A stretch of DNA of 64,000 nucleotides from Anaerolineae bacterium (GTDB lineage Bacteria; Chloroflexota; Anaerolineae; Anaerolineales; UBA11579). The notes beneath the pieces are model-generated. The model ran no database searches. It saw only the letters and a list, made by a program, of their open reading frames with translations, and was not told where the DNA came from. Both the position numbers and the translations under genes were made by a program. The first letter of the stretch is position 1, and each line of letters begins with the position of its first letter. Shown piece by piece: positions 23,897 to 36,873 of the stretch. Location of the stretch: positions 1 to 64,000 of the forward strand of contig SCUK01000012.1 in the NCBI GenBank assembly GCA_004297445.1. Reading direction: 5' to 3'.

Positions 23897-24682
23897 TTAC
23901 CGAACGCGCCGTTTCCACTCATCCTTTAGTTGGAGTTGTTGCGGGCTTTCGCCAGACCCCAGTTCCAAAAAGTCGCTCAAAAGGCGATGGAATTTACTGG
24001 GTTGGTCCAGCATCGGGAAGTGGCCGACTTCTTCAAATATCAGGTGGTGGGAACTGCCCGGCAGCGAGCCGTTGCTCAAGTTCGGCGTCTTCACCGCCGG
24101 GTCATTCTGGCCGTGCACTATCAACGCCGCCGTTCCCATCTGGCGCGAGATCGCCATCATATCGATGTGCTGCAACTCAGTCAGCGATGTGCGGATGGCC
24201 TCGCCGTCTGCCTTGGGGGCTTCCGTGCGGGCGGCCTCGGTGGATGGGTTCTGCGCCAGCAGCCATCCGGCAAGGTCCGCGATATTGCCGCTGGCCATGC
24301 GCTCGTTGAGGTCGGCGGGGGTGAACGGCATGCCGATCGCCATGTAGCGGTCTACGACAAATGGGTGCTTGGAAGCAAACAGGGCCGCCACAATCGCGCC
24401 CAGTCCGTGACCCACTAGCGCGACCTTGGCGATGCCCATTTCATTCAGGAAACGGTCCAGCAGGTTGGTCTGGCTTTCCAGACTGTAGCGGTCCGCTGAC
24501 TTGGCGCTGTCGCCAAAGCCCCACAGGTCCACCGCGTAGGCGCGGTAGGTAACCGAAGTCGCCTGCATGGTGGGAATCCAATAGCGCCACGAGCCCACCC
24601 AGCCGTGCAGGAAGATCACCGGCTTCCCGCGGCCGAGGACTTCGTAATGGACTACCCGGTCTTCAATGATGATGGCGCTCAT
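23897..24682 (-). CDS. Alpha/beta hydrolase-fold protein lacking the Ser nucleophile
   Basis: HGWVGSWRYW oxyanion motif; nucleophile elbow reads GHGLG; HFPMLDQP retains His. Confidence 0.9.
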   Translation of the reverse strand: MSAIIIEDRVVHYEVLGRGKPVIFLHGWVGSWRYWIPTMQATSVTYRAYAVDLWGFGDSAKSADRYSLESQTNLLDRFLNEMGIAKVALVGHGLGAIVAALFASKHPFVVDRYMAIGMPFTPADLNERMASGNIADLAGWLLAQNPSTEAARTEAPKADGEAIRTSLTELQHIDMMAISRQMGTAALIVHGQNDPAVKTPNLSNGSLPGSSHHLIFEEVGHFPMLDQPSKFHRLLSDFLELGSGESPQQLQLKDEWKRRVR

Positions 24683-24709
24683 CGTGTGTTCACCAGCGGC
24701 CTTAGAGGC

Positions 24710-25087
24710 TCACTTCTTGGCGTATTTCTCCAGTAGTTCTTTGACCTTGACGGTGAGTTGGTCCGGCGCAAAGGGTTTGAGAATGTATTCCACCGCGCCC
24801 GCTTCCAATCCTGCTGAGACTTCGCTTTCCTGGCCCTTCGCGGACAGAAACACCACCGGAATGGGCTTGAGGGCATCAATTTCCTTCATCTTCTTGCAGG
24901 CCTCATAGCCGGTCATGCGCGGCATGCGCACGTCCATCATGATCAGGTCCGGCAGCACCTCTTGCGCTTTCAGGAAGGCTTCTTCGCCGTTGGCGGTGGG
25001 CACCACCTCATGCCCGGCGAATCGCAGGGTGAACGTGATAAGGTCGCGAATGTCACGTTCGTCTTCGGCGATCAGTATTTTTGCCAT
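24710..25087 (-). CDS. CheY-like response regulator
   Basis: MAKILIAEDERDIRDLI, phospho-Asp PDLIMMDVRMP, VVFLSAKG; start at ATG 25087. Confidence 0.95.
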   Translation of the reverse strand: MAKILIAEDERDIRDLITFTLRFAGHEVVPTANGEEAFLKAQEVLPDLIMMDVRMPRMTGYEACKKMKEIDALKPIPVVFLSAKGQESEVSAGLEAGAVEYILKPFAPDQLTVKVKELLEKYAKK

Positions 25088-25088
25088 G

Positions 25089-28000
25089 TTATGCCTCCTC
25101 CGAGGAGTCTTCTTTTTGTTCAGGCTTGTAGGCCGGCAGCACGAACGAGAATGTACTGCCCTGGCCGGGCATGCCGCTGCTTTCAACCCAGATGCGGCCG
25201 TTGTGCATTTCGATGAGTTCCTTCACGATGGCGAGACCCAGACCGGTGCCGCTGGTGGCCATCACCAGGTGATTCTCGCCGCGGTAGAAGCGGTCAAAAA
25301 TACGGTCTTGCTCATCCGGGAAAATACCGATACCGCTATCTTTCACATCCACCTGCACATTGCCGTTCACGGCTTTGAGCCCCACGATGATGCGGCCATC
25401 TTCCGGCGTGTAGCGATAGGCATTGTCGATGATGTTGCTGAATACTTGGCGGATGCGCTCGGCATCCCCATAGGCGTTGGGCAGGTTGGGCGGGCATTGA
25501 ATCTGGAACCCCATCGGGCGGTTTTCTTCCTGCGACTTGCGTTCAATGTACTCAACGACTTCCTCGGCGATTTCCTGCATATTGAGCGGCTGCATCGAGA
25601 GCGCCACCTTGCCGGCCTCAATACGGCTGACATCCAGCAGGTCGTTGACCAGGACGCTCAGCCGGTCGATATTGCTGCTGATGATTTCCATGAACTGGCG
25701 CTGCTGCTCATTGAGCTCGCCCGCGCCGCCCATCATCATGAATTCCACATAGCCTTTAATCGGCGTCAGCGGCGTACGCAGTTCATGGCTTACCGTGGCG
25801 ACGAATTCAGACTTCAGGCGGTCGACCTCAACCTGGTGGGTGATGTCCCGGAAGATGGACACGGTGCCCAGGAATTCACTTGCGGAATACACCGGCGCCA
25901 GATGCACCGAAACCACCCGGCCATCGTCCAGCGAAAGCCGTTCCGAGTACTGCTCGCCTTCGGCGCGCCCTGCGGGGGCCTCAGACCAGCCGCGGATGGC
26001 GGCCATCCAGGGCTGGGCGGCGGCGCCGAACAGTCCCAGGAAATTATCCAGTGAACGGCCCACGACCTCCTGCTGTTCGAGAAGCAGGATGGTCGCCGCG
26101 GCGTCGTTGAACAGCGTGATGGCGTTCTGGTGGTCCGTCACCAGGATACCGTCGGCCACGCCTTCCAGCATCGCGGTGGAACGGCTGGCCTCGATTTGCT
26201 GCGAGCGGAGCATCGTGCCGAGGTCGGCGGCCTGGTCACGAATCAGGCGGAACAACTCACCATTGTTAATCGAGACCGCAAACTGGTTGGCGGCCGCCTG
26301 CACCGCGTCAATCTGGTATTCGGTGAAGTGGTTGGGTTCCCGGTGGTAGAGCATCAGCGCGCCCAGTGCATCCGCGCCCACCGTCAGCGGCACAACGATG
26401 GCCGAACGGTGCACAGAAATATCTCCCCGGTCACCAATCCAGCGCTCGTCTGTGCTGAGGTCGGGAATCACCAGCGGGCTGCGATTTTGAATCACCCAGC
26501 CGGCCAAGCCTTCGCCCACCCGGTAGGAGGAAGGCCGGCCTCCGGTGGGTGCAGCCCCGGAAATGCCGATGCCGGCGCGGTACACCAGGTTCTCTTCGCC
26601 CGGCCGGACGATGATGATGCTGGATTGCTCGGCGTTTACCGCCTGGTTCAGCTCCTCCAGCGAGCGATTCAGCACGTGGTCCAGGTCCAGGCTGGCGGAA
26701 AGTTCCGCCGAAATGCGCAGCAGGGCTTGCATGAAATGATGCTCGCGTTCCAACTCATCCGTGCGGGCGCGCACGCGTTCTTCCAATTGTTCGTTCAACC
26801 GGCGTGATTCTTCAAACAGCCGGGCGTTCTCCAGCGTCAGGCCGGTCTGCTGGGTGAGTGAGGTAACCAGCGCTTCGTCTTCGGCGCTGAATGCGTTCTG
26901 GGTATTGAAATTGTCCAGCGTGATGAGGCCCATAGCTTTGTCGCCGGCGCGGATGGGGATAAGCATGCTGCTGACCGGCACACGCCCGCCGGTGGCTTCC
27001 CGGTAGATGAGCAGTTTTTCGGGGCTCAGGTTGTAATGCCGCGCGAAATCGACTTCGTGCACTCGTCGGGCGGCATTGGCGGCGAACACCTGGCCGGGCA
27101 GCGCCTCGTTGCGGCTGAAGGTCAGCCGTTTCACCAGGTCATTGTCGCTGTAACCGCTGGCCGCATGGATTACGAGCTCATTCGCCGACGAGTTCCACAG
27201 CGCCACCAGCCCGGCATGTGCGCTGGTCAGCGCCTTGCGGGCGCTTTCCACCAGTGTGGCAAGGATTTGCGATTCGCTGAGCGAGCCGAGCTGCTGGCTG
27301 AATTCAAGCAGCAGGTTCACTTCGCGCAGGCGGCGGCGCGTTTCGGTGAGCAGATTGATGTTCTGCAGGGCAATGGCGACCTGGCTGCCAATCAGGTCAA
27401 AGATTTGCTGGTCTTCCTCATTGAACGCCGGCATCGCCGTGTTGCTTACTGCCAGTACCGCCGCGTCCACATGCCCGTTGGAGGAAATCGGCAGGGTGAC
27501 GAACCCCTTGGCATTTAGGTTCTTGAGCAGCGGCGTGTTCTGCCACTCGGCATTCTGGTCCAGGTCAGAGACCAGGATCGGTTTGCCGTTCAGCAGCGTC
27601 TGGCGCAGCGGGTTGCGCTGGCCCAGCAACGCTTGCGGGTTGGCGGTCTCCGGAAGGTTACCCAGCCGTTGCAGAAGTCGCGGGCCGCTGCTGGCTGGCT
27701 CGACCACCAGCGCCGAATCCATTTCGAGGCGGGTGATAAGTTCCTGGCCCAGCGCCTGCAAAACAGCCTCGCGGTCCGGCTGGCGGTTCACGGTCTCGGC
27801 AATGTCCAGACCGATGCGGATGTTGCGCGCCCGGTCATACAGTTGCTGGATGGTTAGCGTCTGTTCCAGGTCCTTGTGCAGCAGGATACTCAGGTTGTCC
27901 TGTGCGTTGCGGCTGGAGCGTTCGGCGCGCCCAATCTGGCCTTCAATCTCATCCACCCGCTCTCGCAGGGAGCGCAGGCGCAGCGCGGATTCAATCACCA

Positions 28001-31000
28001 GCGCGGCTTCGGTGGCGAAGATTTCGAGGGTTTCGATGGTCAGGGTATCCGGGCGCAGGCCGTCGGGCGGCGCGTCCACGGCGATCACGCCCAGTGGGTG
28101 CTTGCTGGCATCCCGCAGCGGCACCAGCAGCAGGTCCCCCGGCATCCACGCATTGGCGCTGTTCTCCGGGATGGTGTAATTGGTGCCGGCATACGCGGGG
28201 ACCAGCGCCACCGTGCCCGCGGCTTCTGTATGTGGGATGAAGTACGAATCGCTGCGCCGCCGCTCCGCATGCAGCAGGCTTTCCAGCTCACTCCACGGAT
28301 GCAGGACCTGGCGCACCTGTTCCAGCGTTTCCAGCGGCAGCCCGGCGCCGCTGGCGGCGCGCAACACTTCGTGCTGGGGGTCAAACGCGTAGATAAGCAC
28401 CACGTTGAAGAGGTTGGCTTCCCGCACGCCGAATGCGATGATTTCCAACGCCTCTTCCAATGGCATTTCGAGATTTACCGCCCGGGTGGTCTCGAACAGG
28501 CGGTTGAAAGCGTCCACGCGGCGGTTGAGCACTTCGCCGCGTTCCACCTGGTGCTGGTAGCGTTGGGCGTTGCCGAGGGCGATGGCCGCCTGCACAGCCA
28601 GCGCCTGCGTGATTTCCAGCGCGACGGCATCGAAATGGTCCGGCTGGCGGGCATACAGGTGAATAAGTCCGGCGGTGGTTTCCTGGAATGCGATGGGCAC
28701 CAGCAGGGCGGAGCGAACCCCCGGCCGGCTGGGCGTTTCGCTGCCGCGCTCAAAATCGTCCACGATCAGCGGCTCGCCTTCAGCCAGCACGCGCTCTTCC
28801 AGCGGGGTCAGCGCTTCGTTTTCGGTCTCAATCTGCCCCAGGTTGAGCAGGATGCGTCGTTCCCCGTGCCCGTTGCTGCTCTCCAGGTCCAGCAGCACAA
28901 TCTTGCCGCCGCTGGCGCTGGTGGTGCGCATCGCTTCGTCATACACGCGCTGCACGAGGTGATGCAGATTCAACGTGGTATTCAACTCGCGGCTGATGCT
29001 GGAAAGCGCCGTCAGGTGTTCCACGCGGCGTTGCAGCGTCACGTCGGTCTGAGCATACAGCTGGGAACGCTCTATGGCGTTGGCCAGTTGGCTGCCGGCC
29101 GTGGAGAGTGATTGGGTGTCGTTCTGGTCAAAATCTCCGGAGCGGCGGCTGGCCACCAGTAATTCGCCCACGCCGCGGTCGCGGATGGTGAGCGGCACGA
29201 CCATCACCGAGCGCATCGCAGCAAACCGGCCCAGGATGGTCTTGTAGAAGGGCGGCAGGATTGCCGTGCGGGTGTCGGGGATGAGCAATGGCATGCCGGT
29301 GGCGGTCACGCTTTGCCGGAAGGCTTCGTCGTGTGTTGCTAGGCGTTCAATGTCATCAATCAGTTCCGGCGCCATTCCCACCAGCGAATCGCGGTGCAGG
29401 CGCAGTTCGCCGCGCGTCTCGTCGCGCAGGTAAATGGCGGCGTGGTCTGCGCCAAAGAACCGCGCCGTTTCCATCAATGAGAATTTGAGGATTTCATCCA
29501 GCGTGGCATCCGCGCCGGCCAGGCTGGCGATGCGGCGCAGGGTTTCGGCGCGCTGGGCACGCCGCCGGCTCTCGCGCATCAGCGCCGCGTTGTCCAGAAT
29601 CGGGGCCGCCTGCCCGGCCACAATCGTCAGCAGGCGCAAGTCGTCATCATTGAAGCGGCTGCCGTCGCGTTTGTTGGCGACCTGCAGGTAACCCAGGGCA
29701 CGACCGCTGGCCGCCAGAGGAATCAGCACCGTGCGTTCAATCGCGGCCGCCAGGGCGAGGTGGGCAATCCCCAGGTCGGTCAGCGCAGAATCTTCGGCGG
29801 CATTGTCGGTGAAGATGACATCACCGCTGTTCCACACTCGTTCGCCGGGCCCGCCCACCGGGACTTCGGCCCGATACAGTTCAACGAAATTGTCCGGCAG
29901 CCCCTGGAAGGGAATTTTGCCTTGCAGGAGGCGTTCGCCTTCGTGGTAGATGAGAAAGCCGATGATTTCTACGTCCAGCAATCGGCCGATGCTGGCAGTC
30001 AATCGTTCATACAATTGGTGTTCGTCGCGGATGGATGAACCGACCTTGGCCAAATCGGCCAGGCCGCTGATTTCCGCCACGCGTTGCCCTTCTTCATGAT
30101 GGATGATGGCGTTTTGCAGCGCGACCGCTGCCTGCCCGGAGAGCATGGTCAGTATCTCGAGGTCGCTTTCGGCGAAGGCGTTCAAGCCCTGGCTCGCCAG
30201 TTCCAGCGTGCCAATCTGCTGTCCGGCCACCACCAGCGGGATGCCGAGATAGGACTTGAAGGGGAATTCCTTGCGATCCAGCGCCGGGCGCACCAGAAGA
30301 TAGGAATCAATATCATTGACCAGCAACGGCCGTCGTTCGTTAATCAGGTAGCCGGAATACCCCTGGCTGACTTTGTAGCGGGTCGTACTTTTTTCAAGTT
30401 GCGATTCACCACCCAGCCCGGCAGTGTAGCGGTAGGGCGTCAGTTCCTCGGTATCCGGGTCCCACAGCGTGATCTCGGAGAAGTCGGACTGCACTAGGCG
30501 GTCTACGTTTTCAAGGATGGTTGTGATGGTGGTTTCGAGGTCCAACGAGGCGGACATCGCCTGGCTGATTTCTGCCAGGATGGTGAAGGTCTGGGCATTG
30601 GCCCCGCCGCCCTGGTTTTCCAGGGTCACCAGCTGTGGACGGCGCAGCGTGAGCAGGATGGCGCGCTCGCCCATGAATGGCAGGCTGTACGAAGTCCCCT
30701 CGACGAGGAACTTGCCCAGCGTGAAGCGGGATTGGCCGGCCGTGGCGCACAGACTCAGGAACGTTTCAGCCGGGCGCACGCTGCGTGCCATGGTTTCCAG
30801 GTTGGGGAGGTCTTCCGCGCCCAGGTTGAACCACTCGCGGGCGCGGGCGTTTAGGAAACGTGCCCGCCCCCCGGACTCAATGAGGATGATGGCATCTTCA
30901 CTTGGGGCCACATCCAGCGGGAAGGCCAGCACCGGCGCGGCCGCTGTGTCGCGGCGCAGGCGCGGCACGCTGCGCAACAGCAGCGGGGCCAGGCCCAGAA

Positions 31001-31058
31001 AGGCCAGCCCCACCAGCACGAGCGTGATCCCCAGCGGGGTCATTCCCAGGTCAAACAT
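25089..31058 (-). CDS. Giant hybrid-free sensor histidine kinase (1989 aa): PAS, about 8 GAF, PAS, HisKA, HATPase
   Basis: FVATVSHELRTPLTPIKGYVEF H-box; DSGIGI, GTGLGLAIVKELIE; eight GAF-like repeats each ending in AxxALxNAxLxx. Confidence 0.95.
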   Translation of the reverse strand: MFDLGMTPLGITLVLVGLAFLGLAPLLLRSVPRLRRDTAAAPVLAFPLDVAPSEDAIILIESGGRARFLNARAREWFNLGAEDLPNLETMARSVRPAETFLSLCATAGQSRFTLGKFLVEGTSYSLPFMGERAILLTLRRPQLVTLENQGGGANAQTFTILAEISQAMSASLDLETTITTILENVDRLVQSDFSEITLWDPDTEELTPYRYTAGLGGESQLEKSTTRYKVSQGYSGYLINERRPLLVNDIDSYLLVRPALDRKEFPFKSYLGIPLVVAGQQIGTLELASQGLNAFAESDLEILTMLSGQAAVALQNAIIHHEEGQRVAEISGLADLAKVGSSIRDEHQLYERLTASIGRLLDVEIIGFLIYHEGERLLQGKIPFQGLPDNFVELYRAEVPVGGPGERVWNSGDVIFTDNAAEDSALTDLGIAHLALAAAIERTVLIPLAASGRALGYLQVANKRDGSRFNDDDLRLLTIVAGQAAPILDNAALMRESRRRAQRAETLRRIASLAGADATLDEILKFSLMETARFFGADHAAIYLRDETRGELRLHRDSLVGMAPELIDDIERLATHDEAFRQSVTATGMPLLIPDTRTAILPPFYKTILGRFAAMRSVMVVPLTIRDRGVGELLVASRRSGDFDQNDTQSLSTAGSQLANAIERSQLYAQTDVTLQRRVEHLTALSSISRELNTTLNLHHLVQRVYDEAMRTTSASGGKIVLLDLESSNGHGERRILLNLGQIETENEALTPLEERVLAEGEPLIVDDFERGSETPSRPGVRSALLVPIAFQETTAGLIHLYARQPDHFDAVALEITQALAVQAAIALGNAQRYQHQVERGEVLNRRVDAFNRLFETTRAVNLEMPLEEALEIIAFGVREANLFNVVLIYAFDPQHEVLRAASGAGLPLETLEQVRQVLHPWSELESLLHAERRRSDSYFIPHTEAAGTVALVPAYAGTNYTIPENSANAWMPGDLLLVPLRDASKHPLGVIAVDAPPDGLRPDTLTIETLEIFATEAALVIESALRLRSLRERVDEIEGQIGRAERSSRNAQDNLSILLHKDLEQTLTIQQLYDRARNIRIGLDIAETVNRQPDREAVLQALGQELITRLEMDSALVVEPASSGPRLLQRLGNLPETANPQALLGQRNPLRQTLLNGKPILVSDLDQNAEWQNTPLLKNLNAKGFVTLPISSNGHVDAAVLAVSNTAMPAFNEEDQQIFDLIGSQVAIALQNINLLTETRRRLREVNLLLEFSQQLGSLSESQILATLVESARKALTSAHAGLVALWNSSANELVIHAASGYSDNDLVKRLTFSRNEALPGQVFAANAARRVHEVDFARHYNLSPEKLLIYREATGGRVPVSSMLIPIRAGDKAMGLITLDNFNTQNAFSAEDEALVTSLTQQTGLTLENARLFEESRRLNEQLEERVRARTDELEREHHFMQALLRISAELSASLDLDHVLNRSLEELNQAVNAEQSSIIIVRPGEENLVYRAGIGISGAAPTGGRPSSYRVGEGLAGWVIQNRSPLVIPDLSTDERWIGDRGDISVHRSAIVVPLTVGADALGALMLYHREPNHFTEYQIDAVQAAANQFAVSINNGELFRLIRDQAADLGTMLRSQQIEASRSTAMLEGVADGILVTDHQNAITLFNDAAATILLLEQQEVVGRSLDNFLGLFGAAAQPWMAAIRGWSEAPAGRAEGEQYSERLSLDDGRVVSVHLAPVYSASEFLGTVSIFRDITHQVEVDRLKSEFVATVSHELRTPLTPIKGYVEFMMMGGAGELNEQQRQFMEIISSNIDRLSVLVNDLLDVSRIEAGKVALSMQPLNMQEIAEEVVEYIERKSQEENRPMGFQIQCPPNLPNAYGDAERIRQVFSNIIDNAYRYTPEDGRIIVGLKAVNGNVQVDVKDSGIGIFPDEQDRIFDRFYRGENHLVMATSGTGLGLAIVKELIEMHNGRIWVESSGMPGQGSTFSFVLPAYKPEQKEDSSEEA

Positions 31059-31076
31059 GGGTGTCCGTCAGAGTCC

Positions 31077-31970
31077 TCAGGCGGCAGAGTCTTTGCGGCG
31101 TGATTCGGCGGCGAGTTCAGTGATCTCGCGGATGTCGGAGATTTGCTGCTTGCCGGCTTCCACCAGGCCCACGGAAATGTTCATCAGTGGGGTTTGCTGC
31201 TTCTGGCCGCCGTCGTTGGTGGTTTCGATATAGCCTTGTTCGCGGTCCATGAAGTTGTAGTGGCTGAGGACCTGTTCCGCGAAGCGCTTCTTCACCGCGG
31301 TGTGTACTTTGGCCCCGGCATCTTCTGAACAGATGATGATGAAATTGTTGCCGCCCGGGTGGCCGATGAAATCATCCGGACTGCCGAATTCGTCCATCAC
31401 TTCACCCAGCAGCATGGTGGTGAAGCGCAGGACATCATCGGCGGCAACGAAGCCATAGATTTCCTTGAAAGCTTCAAAATAGTTCAGGCGCAGATCGAGG
31501 TAGGCCCATGACTCGCGACGGATGATCTGGCGTAACTGCTCTTCTATCAGGCGGCCGGAGGGCAGGCCGGAACGCGGGTCGGTGAGGCTCTCGCGTTCCG
31601 CACGGGCAATGGCATTGACCACCCGCAGTTTCAACTCCTCGATATCGAATGGCTTGGTGATGTAGTCGTCTGCACCCAGTTCCAGCCCCTGCAACTTGTC
31701 GCTGCGTTCATCCCGCTGGGTGAGGAATATCACCGGGATATGGCTGGTCCGGGTATTGGTTCGCAGCCGGCGGCAAACTTCATAGCCGTCGATGTCCGGC
31801 AACATGATGTCCAGGACGATGAGGTGGGGCAGGCCCTGACGGGTCTTCTCCAACGCCACTTCGCCACGCGGCGCCACATCGACATCGAAACCTTGCCCGC
31901 TGAAATAGATGCGGAGCATGTTCGAGATATCGAAATCATCCTCGACGATCAGTATTCTGGCTTTTCCCAT
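31077..31970 (-). CDS. Response regulator with degenerate GGDEF domain
   Basis: REC domain PHLIVLDIMLPDIDGYEV; C-terminal diguanylate cyclase-like fold with GGNNF in place of GGDEF. Confidence 0.88.
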   Translation of the reverse strand: MGKARILIVEDDFDISNMLRIYFSGQGFDVDVAPRGEVALEKTRQGLPHLIVLDIMLPDIDGYEVCRRLRTNTRTSHIPVIFLTQRDERSDKLQGLELGADDYITKPFDIEELKLRVVNAIARAERESLTDPRSGLPSGRLIEEQLRQIIRRESWAYLDLRLNYFEAFKEIYGFVAADDVLRFTTMLLGEVMDEFGSPDDFIGHPGGNNFIIICSEDAGAKVHTAVKKRFAEQVLSHYNFMDREQGYIETTNDGGQKQQTPLMNISVGLVEAGKQQISDIREITELAAESRRKDSAA

Positions 31971-31990
31971 AAGACCTCCAGAAGCATGAA

Positions 31991-33082
31991 TTAAACGTTG
32001 CGACGCGCACGACGAGCCCGTTCTCGCACGCGTTCGATTTGCTCAATTGTGACGGCCTGCTCAAAGGAACGGAACCCACTGAGGCGGAAGCCGTGTTTCT
32101 CTGCTATTGTATCAATTTCCTGTACCCGTTCGCGGGCAATTTGCTTGCCCAGTGTGTAGTCCTCAAAACGGCCTTCCAGGGCCAGAGCAATCGTTTCGGC
32201 CATGCAGGCGTAGGCTTTCCCGGCCGGGAAGCCGAAATCGAAGTTGAAATTCACATCCCCGGGCACATCCACCATGCCGCCGTCAATCACCAATACATCG
32301 TCGCGGGCGGCCGCCACCCGCGCCGCCACATCCCGTGGGCGGGCCACATCGCATACCACGCTGCCCGGGAGCAGATGCTCCGGTTGGATGATGGCGTGGA
32401 CATCACTGGTAACGGTGAGTATCAGGGGCGTGTGCTGCAGGGCGCCCAGGTCGGTGCTGGTGTGCAGTTGGGCTGTGCTTCCTGCGGCTCGTATTCGCTG
32501 GCACAGGGCATCCAGCGCCTCCTGTCGGCGGCCTATCAGGGTCAGTTCGGCCACCTTGTCCGCCAGCAGTTCCGCGCACACCTGCCCGATGGCTCCGCTG
32601 GCCCCCACCACCGCCGCGGCAGACTGCGCCATGGGGATTTCCATCACGCGGGCAGCTTCTTCCACAGCCCTCACCGCCACAGCCACTGTGTAGGCGTCGC
32701 CGGTGGTTACGGGCACGTCCAGGGCTTTGGCGACTGTCACGCCCGCATCGCCAACGACCGAGGTGTAGGCGCCCAACCCTAGGATGTTCGCGCCCAGCCG
32801 CTCCGCCAGCCGGCCCGTCTGGATGATTTTTTTGTAGACGGTGGGCTCGGCCAGTTCCAGCATCCGGCGCGGGGTGAACGGGCAGGCGATGAGCCAGCCG
32901 GTTACCTGCTTGCCGGTGGCGGCAGAGGTAATGCCCTGGATTTCAGAGAGGTAGACGGGTGGAAAGAAGGTGGAGAAGAAATCGATCTGGCGCTCGCTCA
33001 GCGCCCGCCCCAAAAAAGGAAATTTTCGGCTGACATCCCGCTTCGCATCAATGGGATGGATGATGAATGCAAAGGTGTCCAA
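31991..33082 (-). CDS. Acyl-[acyl-carrier-protein] reductase (AAR)-like oxidoreductase
   Basis: Resembles cyanobacterial AAR as recalled: SATGKQVTGWLIACPFTPRRML, LGAYTSVVGDAG, TGDAYTVAVAVRAVEEAAR, VVGASGAIGQV (NADPH), AGKAYACMAETIALALEGR containing the expected catalytic Cys. Confidence 0.82.
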   Translation of the reverse strand: MDTFAFIIHPIDAKRDVSRKFPFLGRALSERQIDFFSTFFPPVYLSEIQGITSAATGKQVTGWLIACPFTPRRMLELAEPTVYKKIIQTGRLAERLGANILGLGAYTSVVGDAGVTVAKALDVPVTTGDAYTVAVAVRAVEEAARVMEIPMAQSAAAVVGASGAIGQVCAELLADKVAELTLIGRRQEALDALCQRIRAAGSTAQLHTSTDLGALQHTPLILTVTSDVHAIIQPEHLLPGSVVCDVARPRDVAARVAAARDDVLVIDGGMVDVPGDVNFNFDFGFPAGKAYACMAETIALALEGRFEDYTLGKQIARERVQEIDTIAEKHGFRLSGFRSFEQAVTIEQIERVRERARRARRNV

Positions 33083-33085
33083 ACG

Positions 33086-34396
33086 CTACCAGGTTTCCGT
33101 GGTGACCTTTTTCTCGCGTTCCGGGTCGTACAGCCGTTTGTGCAGTTGGGCCGCCTTCAACTGGTGGTGGTCGCTTTGTTCAAATGGCACATTGTGGTCA
33201 ATCACTCGCCGCTTGTCACCGGAGACGATGACGACATCCGACTCGATGACCCGCGCCGGGGAGACCACCACGCCAGCGCCGATGCGGCAATTGTGCCCCA
33301 CGCAACCGCCCAGCACGGCGCGGTTGGCGTCGCTTAATTTGCCTGCGCCATCCAGCGCGCGGATGGGGGCGGGCAGCAGGTTGTAATCCGTCCAGGTGGA
33401 GCCGGCGCCGATGAAGGTGTTGCGGCCCACCACGCACATCTGCAGGCACGTGTTCTGCGCCACCATGCTGTTGTCCATCAGGGTGGTCATGAACAGGGAG
33501 GCGCGGAAGGGAAGGAACGTGCCGTCGCCCACCACCGAGAGCATAAGCTGGCAGCCCTGCGAGACGTTCACATTGTCACCGATGATGCAGTTTTCAATCA
33601 CCGCCCCGGCGCCGATGGTGACGTTATCGCCAATGGTTGTGGGGCCGTGGATGATGGCAGTAGGGTCAATCGAGGCGTTGCGCCCGACCTTGACCAGTTC
33701 GCGGCTCTCCAGGATTTGCTTGCCTTCGTACAGCGCCCCGGCCAGGATTTTGAGCTTAAAGACCAGGTCCTGATTCAGGCGGTCTTCAAAACGCGCCCCG
33801 CGCGCGAACAGCCCGAACACGATGTCCACGATGAAGATATGCACCCAGGAATCAATAGCGATCAGGGCGCGTAGCGGAACCTGGAAGGTCAGGTCGCCGG
33901 ACTGGGAGGCCATATAGGTCGGCACATGGTAGTAGCCAACCTCGCGGGCCTGCAGGTCAATGAGCACCGGCTCCACCTGGGCTTCCGGCACCGGCCCATC
34001 CGGGAAGTACCAGAAATCCGCCAGATACAGCCCGCCGGCAGGGGTATAGGAGGTGGCAAGCGGGAGGGCGTGCTCGCGAAAGGAAGGGTCAGCCGGGGAA
34101 AAGGCGGCCCGACAGGCCTTGCCGCGCTTGCGCGCTTCGGTCATAAAAGCATTGACGAAAAACTCGTCGAAATACAGGTTGTCAGCGTAGACGATGCAGG
34201 CGCGTTCGTTCTGAAACTTGAAGAAATCCGAATTCAGTACTTCTTCCAGGCTGTTGGCTTCCAGTTCGGTCTGGGCATAGGGGGCCAGCACGTCCCGCTG
34301 GTGCAGCCAGAGCAGTTTGTTCTGGATGCGCAGGTCGCGGGCGTGGTCGTTGAACGGGTAGATGTATCGCGGGTCTTTGATGGCAACTTTGATCAT
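33086..34396 (-). CDS. Left-handed beta-helix (hexapeptide repeat) GlmU-like protein
   Basis: Hexapeptide repeats GPTTIGDNVTIGAGAVIENCIIGDNVNVSQGC and CVGRNTFIGAGSTWTDYNLLP. Confidence 0.85.
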   Translation of the reverse strand: MIKVAIKDPRYIYPFNDHARDLRIQNKLLWLHQRDVLAPYAQTELEANSLEEVLNSDFFKFQNERACIVYADNLYFDEFFVNAFMTEARKRGKACRAAFSPADPSFREHALPLATSYTPAGGLYLADFWYFPDGPVPEAQVEPVLIDLQAREVGYYHVPTYMASQSGDLTFQVPLRALIAIDSWVHIFIVDIVFGLFARGARFEDRLNQDLVFKLKILAGALYEGKQILESRELVKVGRNASIDPTAIIHGPTTIGDNVTIGAGAVIENCIIGDNVNVSQGCQLMLSVVGDGTFLPFRASLFMTTLMDNSMVAQNTCLQMCVVGRNTFIGAGSTWTDYNLLPAPIRALDGAGKLSDANRAVLGGCVGHNCRIGAGVVVSPARVIESDVVIVSGDKRRVIDHNVPFEQSDHHQLKAAQLHKRLYDPEREKKVTTETW

Positions 34397-34587
34397 GGTG
34401 TGCTCGTCTGACCGGTTTGATTCAATTCGAGTATATCGCGGGGGTGCGCGGCCAGTATGTCAATTTCAGGAAAGATATGTGTTCACCGGCAAAACAGCCG
34501 CCGGCAGGATTGGGCCAAATTCTGCGGGATTATAACGCCCGGTAGGAAGGGTTGCAGGATTTGGGCCGTTGTGCTGGAGGGGGCGGT

Positions 34588-35370
34588 TTATTCGTCCAGG
34601 AACTGCTTGAGGGTCGTCATGAATGCCCGCGGCTGGTCCAGCATGGGGAAATGCCCGGCGTGTTCCATGAGTTGGACGTGGGGTTCAGCCACCCCGGCTT
34701 CCAGCAATTTGTACTGGTTTGGGTTAACCAGGTTGTCCTTGAGCCCGTAGATTCCCAGTACCGGTTTATGGATTTGTTCCAACGTGGCGCGCAGGTCAGT
34801 TTTGCGCAGCGATTTGATGCTTGAGAGGAAGGACTCTAGCGTCGTCTTGTCGAGGTCCTGATTAATCATATCCGGCCAGCGCGGATCGTTCGTGATACGT
34901 GGCGCCGCGGCGCGCAGGCCCAGTTTCAACGCCCACAGCATATTGTGAACTGCCCAGGCGACTGGCGTGTAGCCGGCCAGTTTCAGTGGCAATGCCAGCG
35001 AACCACCCACGATGGGTGAGCCGATGATTCCCACTTTGGTCACGCGGTGCGGGTAACGGATGGCGACAGCCAGGCTCACCGTGCCCCCCATGCTGTGGCC
35101 GACCAGCGGCGCCTGTGCGATGCCCATCCTGTCCATGAACTGGTCAACCAGGCTCACGAAGTCAGGGATGTCGTAAGATTCGCGCTTCTTGCCGGATTCG
35201 CCAAACCCCCAGAAATCCAGGGCATAGGCACGGTAATCGTTCTGCAGGAAAGACATGGTCTCCTGCCACAGCCCCCAGGAGCCCAGCCAGCCATGCAACA
35301 GGATTACAGGTCGTCCGCGCCCATGGACTTCATAATGGACGACGCCCTGATCGGTAGTTATTGTGGACAC
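34588..35370 (-). CDS. Alpha/beta hydrolase
   Basis: HGWLGSWGLWQ, nucleophile GHSMGG, HAGHFPMLDQP. Confidence 0.94.
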   Translation of the reverse strand: MSTITTDQGVVHYEVHGRGRPVILLHGWLGSWGLWQETMSFLQNDYRAYALDFWGFGESGKKRESYDIPDFVSLVDQFMDRMGIAQAPLVGHSMGGTVSLAVAIRYPHRVTKVGIIGSPIVGGSLALPLKLAGYTPVAWAVHNMLWALKLGLRAAAPRITNDPRWPDMINQDLDKTTLESFLSSIKSLRKTDLRATLEQIHKPVLGIYGLKDNLVNPNQYKLLEAGVAEPHVQLMEHAGHFPMLDQPRAFMTTLKQFLDE

Positions 35371-35408
35371 AGCAATCGATTTCTCGCGCGGGGTTTCCCC
35401 GCCGTGGG

Positions 35409-35933
35409 TTATAGCTCGGTCAGAATCGTGCCGAGCAGCTCCAGCAAAACGCTCTTGACCGATTCGCGGTCAACCGCCACTGCCGGCAACAGTTTGACAT
35501 CCGGGTCCAGCCGCAGGGCGATGCGCATGTCGTCAATCTCCCAGGCGTCTTCCATGTCCTGCTTGTTGGCGGCCACCACATACGGGGTGGGGGCATACGC
35601 CCGGAAGGTCTCGAGGATGGCGCGGGCTTCTTTGAAAGTCTCCGGGCGCGTGCTGTCTACCATCACGATGAAGCCCAGCATGCCTTCCGAAAGGATTTCC
35701 CACATGAAGTCAAAGCGTTTCTGCCCGGGCGTACCGAACAGGTACAGCACCAGCTCGTCATCCACCGTGATGCGGCCAAAGTCCATCGCCACGGTGGTGG
35801 ACTCCTTGATTTTTTCGGCTTCGGACGAGACCTTGCGTTCGGTCGAGACGACATCAATCTCGCTGACGGTCTGGATAAACTCCGTCTTGCCGGAGTTGAA
35901 CGGGCCGGTCACTACCATTTTGACAGTTTGCAT
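35409..35933 (-). CDS. Small Ras-like GTPase (COG2229/MglA-like)
   Basis: P-loop GPFNSGKT, G3 GTPGQKRF, G4 AANKQD. Confidence 0.93.
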   Translation of the reverse strand: MQTVKMVVTGPFNSGKTEFIQTVSEIDVVSTERKVSSEAEKIKESTTVAMDFGRITVDDELVLYLFGTPGQKRFDFMWEILSEGMLGFIVMVDSTRPETFKEARAILETFRAYAPTPYVVAANKQDMEDAWEIDDMRIALRLDPDVKLLPAVAVDRESVKSVLLELLGTILTEL

Positions 35934-35965
35934 AGCGGGCTATCCTCGGTATGACAAGATGACTT

Positions 35966-36787
35966 CTACAGCGAACGAATCCGCCCGATGAGGCGGTTGA
36001 CGAGGTTCTTCTGCTCTTCCTTGTTCTTGCCTGGCATCGCCTTATCAATGCCGGGAAGGGTTTGTTCCACACCCTCCGGGCGAATCAACTCGACCAAACC
36101 CGCCTGCAACAGCCCGTACACGATGCGGCGGATGTCCAGCTCACTCATTTTGTTGGCTTTAGCAATGGCGCCAATGGTGTTCTTCGGGTTGATGAAGGAC
36201 ACCACTTTCCATTCTTCCACGCTCAGGTTGATATTTTTAAGATTCACGCCCGGCCGGTCGGTGAATTTCAGCGCCAGTTCCAGGTTGGGTAGTTCATCCT
36301 TCAACTGCTCCCACTCACGCAGGCGGCGTGAGCCTTCAATAATGATGTTCTCAAGGTCCAGCTTGACCGGAATCTTGTCTCCGGGGACCAGGATATCGTT
36401 ATCAAAATGGAAGATGCCTTCGACCCACGAGAACAGCCGCTGAATGATGTCCACAAAGTGCGTCTGCAGGCTGGCGAGGATGTCTTCCTGGCTCACGTAG
36501 CCGGAATTAATGAGCAATAAGCCCAGTTCTTTATCGTTCATGCTGGCCGCGCGTGCCTTGAGCGTACCGTACTGGGCGGTCGAAATCACATTGGACTTGT
36601 GCAAGATCGCGCCCAACCCGCCATCTTCCGTGTTGACCTGGGCATACGCCAGTTTGCCTTCCCGGAAGGTGATTGTGGCGGTCTCGCTCGGCCCTTCGAT
36701 GATAAGAGAACCGGTCTTTTGAGCCAGGTTTACCAGATTCAGCAACTGGGTGATGGTAAAGTCTCGTAAGTTGCCTTTTAATGCCAT
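35966..36787 (-). CDS. DUF4388 (PATAN-like) domain protein
   Basis: MALKGNLRDFTITQLLNLVNLAQKTGSLIIEG...ATITFREGKLAYAQVN. Confidence 0.9.
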   Translation of the reverse strand: MALKGNLRDFTITQLLNLVNLAQKTGSLIIEGPSETATITFREGKLAYAQVNTEDGGLGAILHKSNVISTAQYGTLKARAASMNDKELGLLLINSGYVSQEDILASLQTHFVDIIQRLFSWVEGIFHFDNDILVPGDKIPVKLDLENIIIEGSRRLREWEQLKDELPNLELALKFTDRPGVNLKNINLSVEEWKVVSFINPKNTIGAIAKANKMSELDIRRIVYGLLQAGLVELIRPEGVEQTLPGIDKAMPGKNKEEQKNLVNRLIGRIRSL

Positions 36788-36843: not shown

Positions 36844-36873
36844 ATTATACTTTATTAAGGAATTCGCGGTCAA
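36844..36873 (-). promoter_or_regulatory. sigma70-type promoter for the DUF4388 operon (TTGACC-N18-TATAAT on minus strand)
   Basis: Plus-strand ATTATA 36844-36849 and GGTCAA 36868-36873. Confidence 0.6.

Follow-up and report, generated by a model that had tools for sequence, protein, structure and literature searches.

Acyl-ACP reductase (AAR) is usually regarded as a cyanobacterial alkane enzyme. We analysed a stretch of 64,000 nucleotides from an Anaerolineae bacterium (contig SCUK01000012.1; the window below), in which a preliminary description had recognised a cyanobacterial-type AAR next to a GlmU-like protein. This raises the question of which enzyme the gene encodes and what it would be used for in a member of the Chloroflexota.

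Identity and active site of the reductase

The gene (31991..33082, minus strand) encodes a stand-alone AAR/PigE-type thioester reductase of 363 aa with a TTG start. It begins 3 nt past the stop of the open reading frame at 33086-34396 on the same strand, referred to as LbH. Homologues of AAR with 53-75% identity are found throughout Anaerolineae, and because both AAR and LbH are conserved we consider them real genes. The sole Pfam match of AAR is the Rossmann domain Shikimate_DH (PF01488; residues 143-261, 1.9e-8). Automatic annotation would therefore be misled. The top NCBIfam match was PigE (NF053554), with 212.5 bits against a cutoff of 850; it covered the reductase part of the model only, since the fused class III aminotransferase is absent. 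It was followed by TIGR04058, the cyanobacterial acyl-ACP reductase equivalog, with 113.0 bits, far under the curated cutoff of 449.7. In a single-sequence HMMER search of PDB sequences, AAR matched the PigE domain (5.5e-36) and the cyanobacterial enzyme SeAAR (2.2e-26). A profile of 40 relatives gave 8e-51 and 9e-41, respectively, well outside what chance would produce, with an NRPS-associated protein (8e-10) and GluTR (2e-5) as the next matches. Judged by these sequence comparisons, the nearest characterised relative is the PigE thioester-reductase domain and not a cyanobacterial AAR.

The AlphaFold model of AAR (mean pLDDT 92) displays the three-domain fold of this enzyme. In Foldseek searches it aligned with SeAAR (6jzy/6jzq) along its entire length (TM 0.75-0.77, E 1e-23) and also matched the carmabin TAD domain (9e4u; TM 0.77 by query, E 3e-17), for which no mechanism paper was found in the literature searched. 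All remaining matches were at 4e-8 or worse. We rejected an identity as shikimate/quinate dehydrogenase, the alternative named beforehand: such dehydrogenases match in the Rossmann part only, their structural matches lie far below AAR, and the catalytic Cys is aligned. SDR and GluTR were ruled out as well, by fold and coverage. The product of 31991-33082 is a genuine member of the AAR/PigE/TamH superfamily. Thus, the proposed AAR homology was borne out by fold and profile, but the label 'cyanobacterial-type' had to be dropped in view of the TIGR04058 score, which is below the cutoff and lower than that for PigE.

The two sequence elements on which the preliminary description was based are both present. 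The GxxGxxG dinucleotide-binding loop appears as GASGAIG at residues 160-166 (32585..32605, minus strand), equivalent to SeAAR 162-168 by alignment. The ACMAE motif contains Cys293 (codon 32204..32206, minus strand), which aligns with SeAAR Cys294 in both a HMMER and a MAFFT alignment and is equivalent to PigE Cys296 (PMC7089970, PMC8341465). Among 40 relatives, Cys293 is invariant, and M294, E296 and the loop glycines vary little or not at all. Every fused AAR paralogue examined (see below) has also retained the catalytic Cys. In SeAAR, the acyl group is carried on C294 and the NADPH phosphate is held by three arginines (PMC7089970). SeAAR residues R189, R193 and R314 correspond to R185, A189 and K313, meaning that one is kept, one lost and one conservatively replaced. 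Evidence that PigE reduces a thioester has been published (PMC8341465), and the reductase domain of TamH forms an aldehyde from acyl-ACP (PMC9594044). AAR is accordingly expected to work as a Cys-thioester reductase.

The residues by which SeAAR contacts the aldehyde-deformylating oxygenase ADO (R73, R79, K80, R118) are represented by A78, K84, K85 and K119. K85 is invariant among the 40 relatives and could serve in docking of ACP or a partner instead of ADO. The alignment is weak around SeAAR M21-Y26 and M279, and the acyl-tunnel residues are too little conserved to indicate a chain length. To our knowledge, there is no experimental precedent for activity within the Chloroflexota AAR clade.

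A conserved operon with a GlmU-fold neighbour

AAR and LbH had been described as a two-gene unit. They do form an adjacent pair, but the actual unit is a run of nine genes on the minus strand (23897-36787). In the direction of transcription, and as assigned by domain matches and synteny, it encodes a DUF4388 protein (35966..36787), a Ras-like small GTPase (35409..35933), a first alpha/beta hydrolase (34588..35370), LbH, AAR, a response regulator with GGDEF domain (RR-GGDEF; 31077..31970), a histidine kinase of 1989 aa with seven GAF matches, PAS, HisKA and HATPase domains (25089..31058), a second, receiver-only response regulator (24710..25087; the listed frame extends to 25186, the likely start being ATG 25087), and a second alpha/beta hydrolase (23897..24682). 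Kinases at the same position in relatives mostly have ~2470 aa compared to the 1989 aa in the window, which probably reflects different numbers of sensor domains. Intergenic gaps are below 40 nt, except for ~190 nt in front of LbH. Upstream of the run, a sigma-70-like promoter match (TTGACC-18-TATAAT, 11/12; 36844..36873, minus strand) was found by consensus. Such matches are hardly more frequent in this region than expected by chance (5 found, 4.2 expected), and we therefore base the assignment as an operon on strand, spacing and synteny.

LbH (33086..34396, minus strand; 436 aa) is a GlmU-fold protein with a GT-A-like N-terminal domain and a left-handed beta-helix. Its predicted model (pLDDT 84, weak at 238-266) matches the NTase-plus-beta-helix proteins ST0452, GMPPA/GMPPB, GlmU and eIF2B in Foldseek. 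By inspection, the GxGTR nucleotide loop is missing from the N-terminus. In an alignment with the GlmU of the same genome, the catalytic His of GlmU (GHFSY) falls on Gln314, which is conserved across 41 LbH relatives. Against GlmU models LbH reaches at most 44 bits, with cutoffs of 366 and more, and a true GlmU (539 bits) is encoded elsewhere in the genome. Of the 'GlmU-like' neighbour 3 nt away, the spacing and the hexapeptide domain (Pfam Hexapep, 3.8e-15) could be confirmed, but LbH as a working GlmU was rejected: both signatures are lost, and the genome has a separate genuine GlmU. Two blocks of LbH (~313-345 and 361-396) are extremely conserved, with the motifs AQNTCLQMC, TFTDxNL, VLGxCVGHNCR and PARxIESDVV. 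This conservation indicates that LbH has its own function, which might be a new activity or the binding of a regulatory ligand.

Synteny was counted for 80 named AAR relatives, including only loci with enough flank. LbH lies directly or closely upstream of AAR in 65 of the 76 assessable loci, and 28 of the 37 loci measured have 0-11 nt between the two genes; the pair, which we had been advised to trace across the phylum, is widely conserved in Anaerolineae. RR-GGDEF follows downstream in 59/73 loci and the kinase in 51/66. GTPase, DUF4388 and first hydrolase are each present in 42/61 and the second hydrolase in 36/52. A V4R protein (PF02830) is encoded in 28/61 loci; the window has no V4R gene.

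In a separate sample of 301 Chloroflexota genomes, AAR and LbH each occur in 53; of the 57 genomes with either gene, 49 have both. Fisher tests for this co-occurrence gave p values of 1e-46 by genome and 2e-7 by family (with a roughly estimated family total), both of which overstate the significance because shared descent makes the counts phylogenetically non-independent. LbH adjoins the stand-alone AARs of the same order and class in every case checked. The sole stand-alone AAR outside the class (G011) adjoins a PlsC-type acyltransferase, and LbH is located elsewhere. The shared set also includes genomes in which AAR is fused and unlinked; there, LbH stands with RR-GGDEF and the kinase, often together with V4R. 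AAR occurs without LbH in two genomes of the wax-linked subclade described below (G144, G184), in the genome with a TamH-like didomain (G145) and in one with a divergent AAR (G251), and LbH occurs without AAR in four genomes (G104, G216, G150, G295). Furthermore, LbH, response regulator and kinase occur without an adjacent AAR in Chloroflexales, in Herpetosiphon-like genomes and in one genome of the same order. LbH therefore has a role that is not tied to AAR by the operon.

Fused paralogues and a possible link to lipids

In the fused paralogues, AAR forms the C-terminal portion of a protein of ~690-760 aa encoded at a locus separate from LbH. In the copies scanned, the N-terminal domain of ~310-330 aa, observed in Chloroflexales and Herpetosiphon-like genomes, matched neither Pfam nor NCBIfam models. 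In the IQ-TREE phylogeny, the fusions form one clade (support 100/100) that contains a wax-linked subclade (86/99), and the stand-alone AARs fall outside. The branching order among SeAAR, PigE and TamH was left unresolved due to long branches. According to this tree, the Chloroflexota proteins look like their own branch of the superfamily and not like recently acquired cyanobacterial AARs.

Other architectures and placements were encountered on the way. G145 encodes a class III aminotransferase-AAR didomain with TamH architecture (L129, 8018-10564), around which no tambjamine or prodigiosin genes were recognised. A 901-aa didomain of the same kind is encoded near cobalamin genes on a plasmid of Haematobacter massiliensis (L157, 1486-4191), the inspected part of which contained neither pig nor tam genes. 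One contig bears the name of the cyanobacterium Pleurocapsa minor, and its AAR clusters with the AAR of Chloroflexi OLB13; this contig probably comes from a mislabelled bin.

The preliminary description had noticed no ADO beside the gene and concluded that the aldehyde would be used for another purpose. Indeed, ADO (PF11266) was above cutoff in none of the 301 Chloroflexota genomes, with a positive Synechococcus control, nor did the genome of the window (89% complete) give a match. The AAR-ADO alkane pathway was therefore rejected. A different use in lipid metabolism is plausible, as some AAR paralogues have a wax ester synthase or a PlsC-type acyltransferase gene for a neighbour. In some Chloroflexales, represented by three genomes of a single genus, a WS/DGAT gene (TIGR02946, 389 bits, cutoff 309.95) directly follows a second AAR fusion (G198, L131 10432-11799; G094, L149 from 4368, minus strand; G230, L150 from 7796, minus strand), and the two genes together may provide a route to wax esters. 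AAR and WS/DGAT occur together in six genomes, each of which encodes a member of the same fused subclade; three more members of this subclade belong to genomes without WS/DGAT. In G184, AAR is followed by an NAD-dependent epimerase/SDR-type gene and an ORF with a PlsC domain; as the two called ORFs overlap, one start must be wrong.

Wax esters are established for Roseiflexus and Chloroflexus and serve as biomarkers of hot-spring mats (PMC4400912). In the literature searched, we found no named reductase for the alcohol half of these wax esters, and the fused AAR genes are therefore testable candidates. The wax-linked AARs form a fused subclade of their own, apart from the AAR of the window, whose genome gave no WS/DGAT (PF03007) match. 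Hence, the connection with wax esters cannot be extended to the window, and wax ester synthesis by WS/DGAT in this organism is unsupported.

Proposed role and comparison with known systems

From these observations we infer catalysis, substrate, product, partner role and regulation of AAR as follows. AAR is probably a stand-alone thioester reductase that depends on NAD(P)H and, controlled by signalling, provides a fatty aldehyde from which a lipid product is made, with LbH as its partner. By homology, an acyl group would be transferred from acyl-ACP or acyl-CoA onto Cys293. A nicotinamide cofactor held by the GASGAIG loop would then reduce the enzyme thioester, and an aldehyde would be released. 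In Chloroflexota, this aldehyde would not be passed to ADO, but most likely be converted to a fatty alcohol or another lipid product, which may be a wax ester in some Chloroflexales. AAR would be translated right behind LbH, its presumed dedicated partner, which may act as regulator, scaffold or modifying enzyme. The GTPase, DUF4388 protein, hydrolases and multi-GAF two-component system of the operon probably set expression or activity.

The substrate need not be a fatty acid. PigE, the nearest characterised relative, belongs to a natural-product pathway and has a branched medium-chain thioester as its substrate (PMC8341465); among the structural matches, SeAAR is followed by the NRPS-associated domain 9e4u, and GluTR is a remote relative. 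AAR might thus reduce a polyketide, amino-acid or short-chain carrier-bound thioester to an aldehyde for specialised metabolism, as PigE and the carmabin TAD domain do. We think this unlikely, because the conserved neighbours of AAR include no PKS, NRPS, carrier-protein or aminotransferase genes, whereas PigE-like plasmid genes are flanked by pigD-like and ACP genes, and because related AARs adjoin the lipid acyltransferases WS/DGAT and PlsC. The degeneration of the GlmU signatures in LbH and the unusual association with regulatory genes could even mean that AAR is no longer an enzyme and acts as a dinucleotide- or acyl-sensing regulator within a signalling operon. Such a loss of activity is very improbable in view of the invariant or nearly invariant Cys293, M294, E296 and glycine loop in 40 relatives and the catalytic Cys in all fused paralogues examined.

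Finally, the aldehyde or an alcohol derived from it might be a cell-to-cell or envelope signal that is read by the V4R protein, GAF kinase or GTPase of the operon. V4R is a small-ligand or hydrocarbon-binding domain, and AAR is tightly linked throughout the class to the seven-GAF kinase, RR-GGDEF, GTPase, DUF4388 and V4R, the last of which is not in the window. However, the signalling module also occurs without an adjacent AAR, no conserved transporter or receptor is present, and multi-GAF kinases have many other reasons to exist, which makes a role in signalling rather doubtful. We would likewise put forward only as speculation a phylum-specific system of fatty-aldehyde/alcohol signalling or lipid remodelling, in which a complex of AAR and a degenerate GlmU-fold protein is controlled by GTPase, DUF4388/V4R and multi-GAF kinase, and its product is sensed by the same operon.

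We therefore favour the fatty aldehyde-forming thioester reductase. The literature searched contained no report of AAR in Chloroflexota, and we found no earlier description of its conserved genomic setting. Our analysis shows the superfamily to be common in this phylum in the absence of ADO and in two architectures. The operon of the mostly uncultured Anaerolineae, with its strongly conserved GlmU-fold partner and signalling module, possibly represents a regulated lipid pathway that is open to experiment.

Compared to known systems, LbH shares the order of a GT-A-like domain followed by a left-handed beta-helix with GlmU, the archaeal NTase-LbH protein ST0452, GMPPA/GMPPB and eIF2B. Unlike GlmU, it has no GxGTR loop, and a conserved Gln replaces the catalytic His. 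The C-terminal thioester reductase domain of TamH belongs to the same superfamily as AAR, and one Chloroflexota genome encodes the TamH-like didomain mentioned above; TamH differs from the AAR of the window in its fusion to a transaminase and in its neighbours. The N-terminal domain of PigE (prodigiosin; 4ppm) is the best sequence match and shares the Cys-Met-Ala-Glu context. In PigE, this domain is fused to a class III aminotransferase, and its gene is part of the pig cluster, whereas AAR stands alone with no aminotransferase or pyrrole genes nearby. SeAAR (6jzq/6jzu/6jzy; TIGR04058) has only ~27% identity to AAR, which has no ADO partner and does not keep R193, Y247 and R73 of SeAAR, but both proteins share the fold, equivalents of Cys294 and of the GATGDIG loop, the length and the stand-alone architecture.
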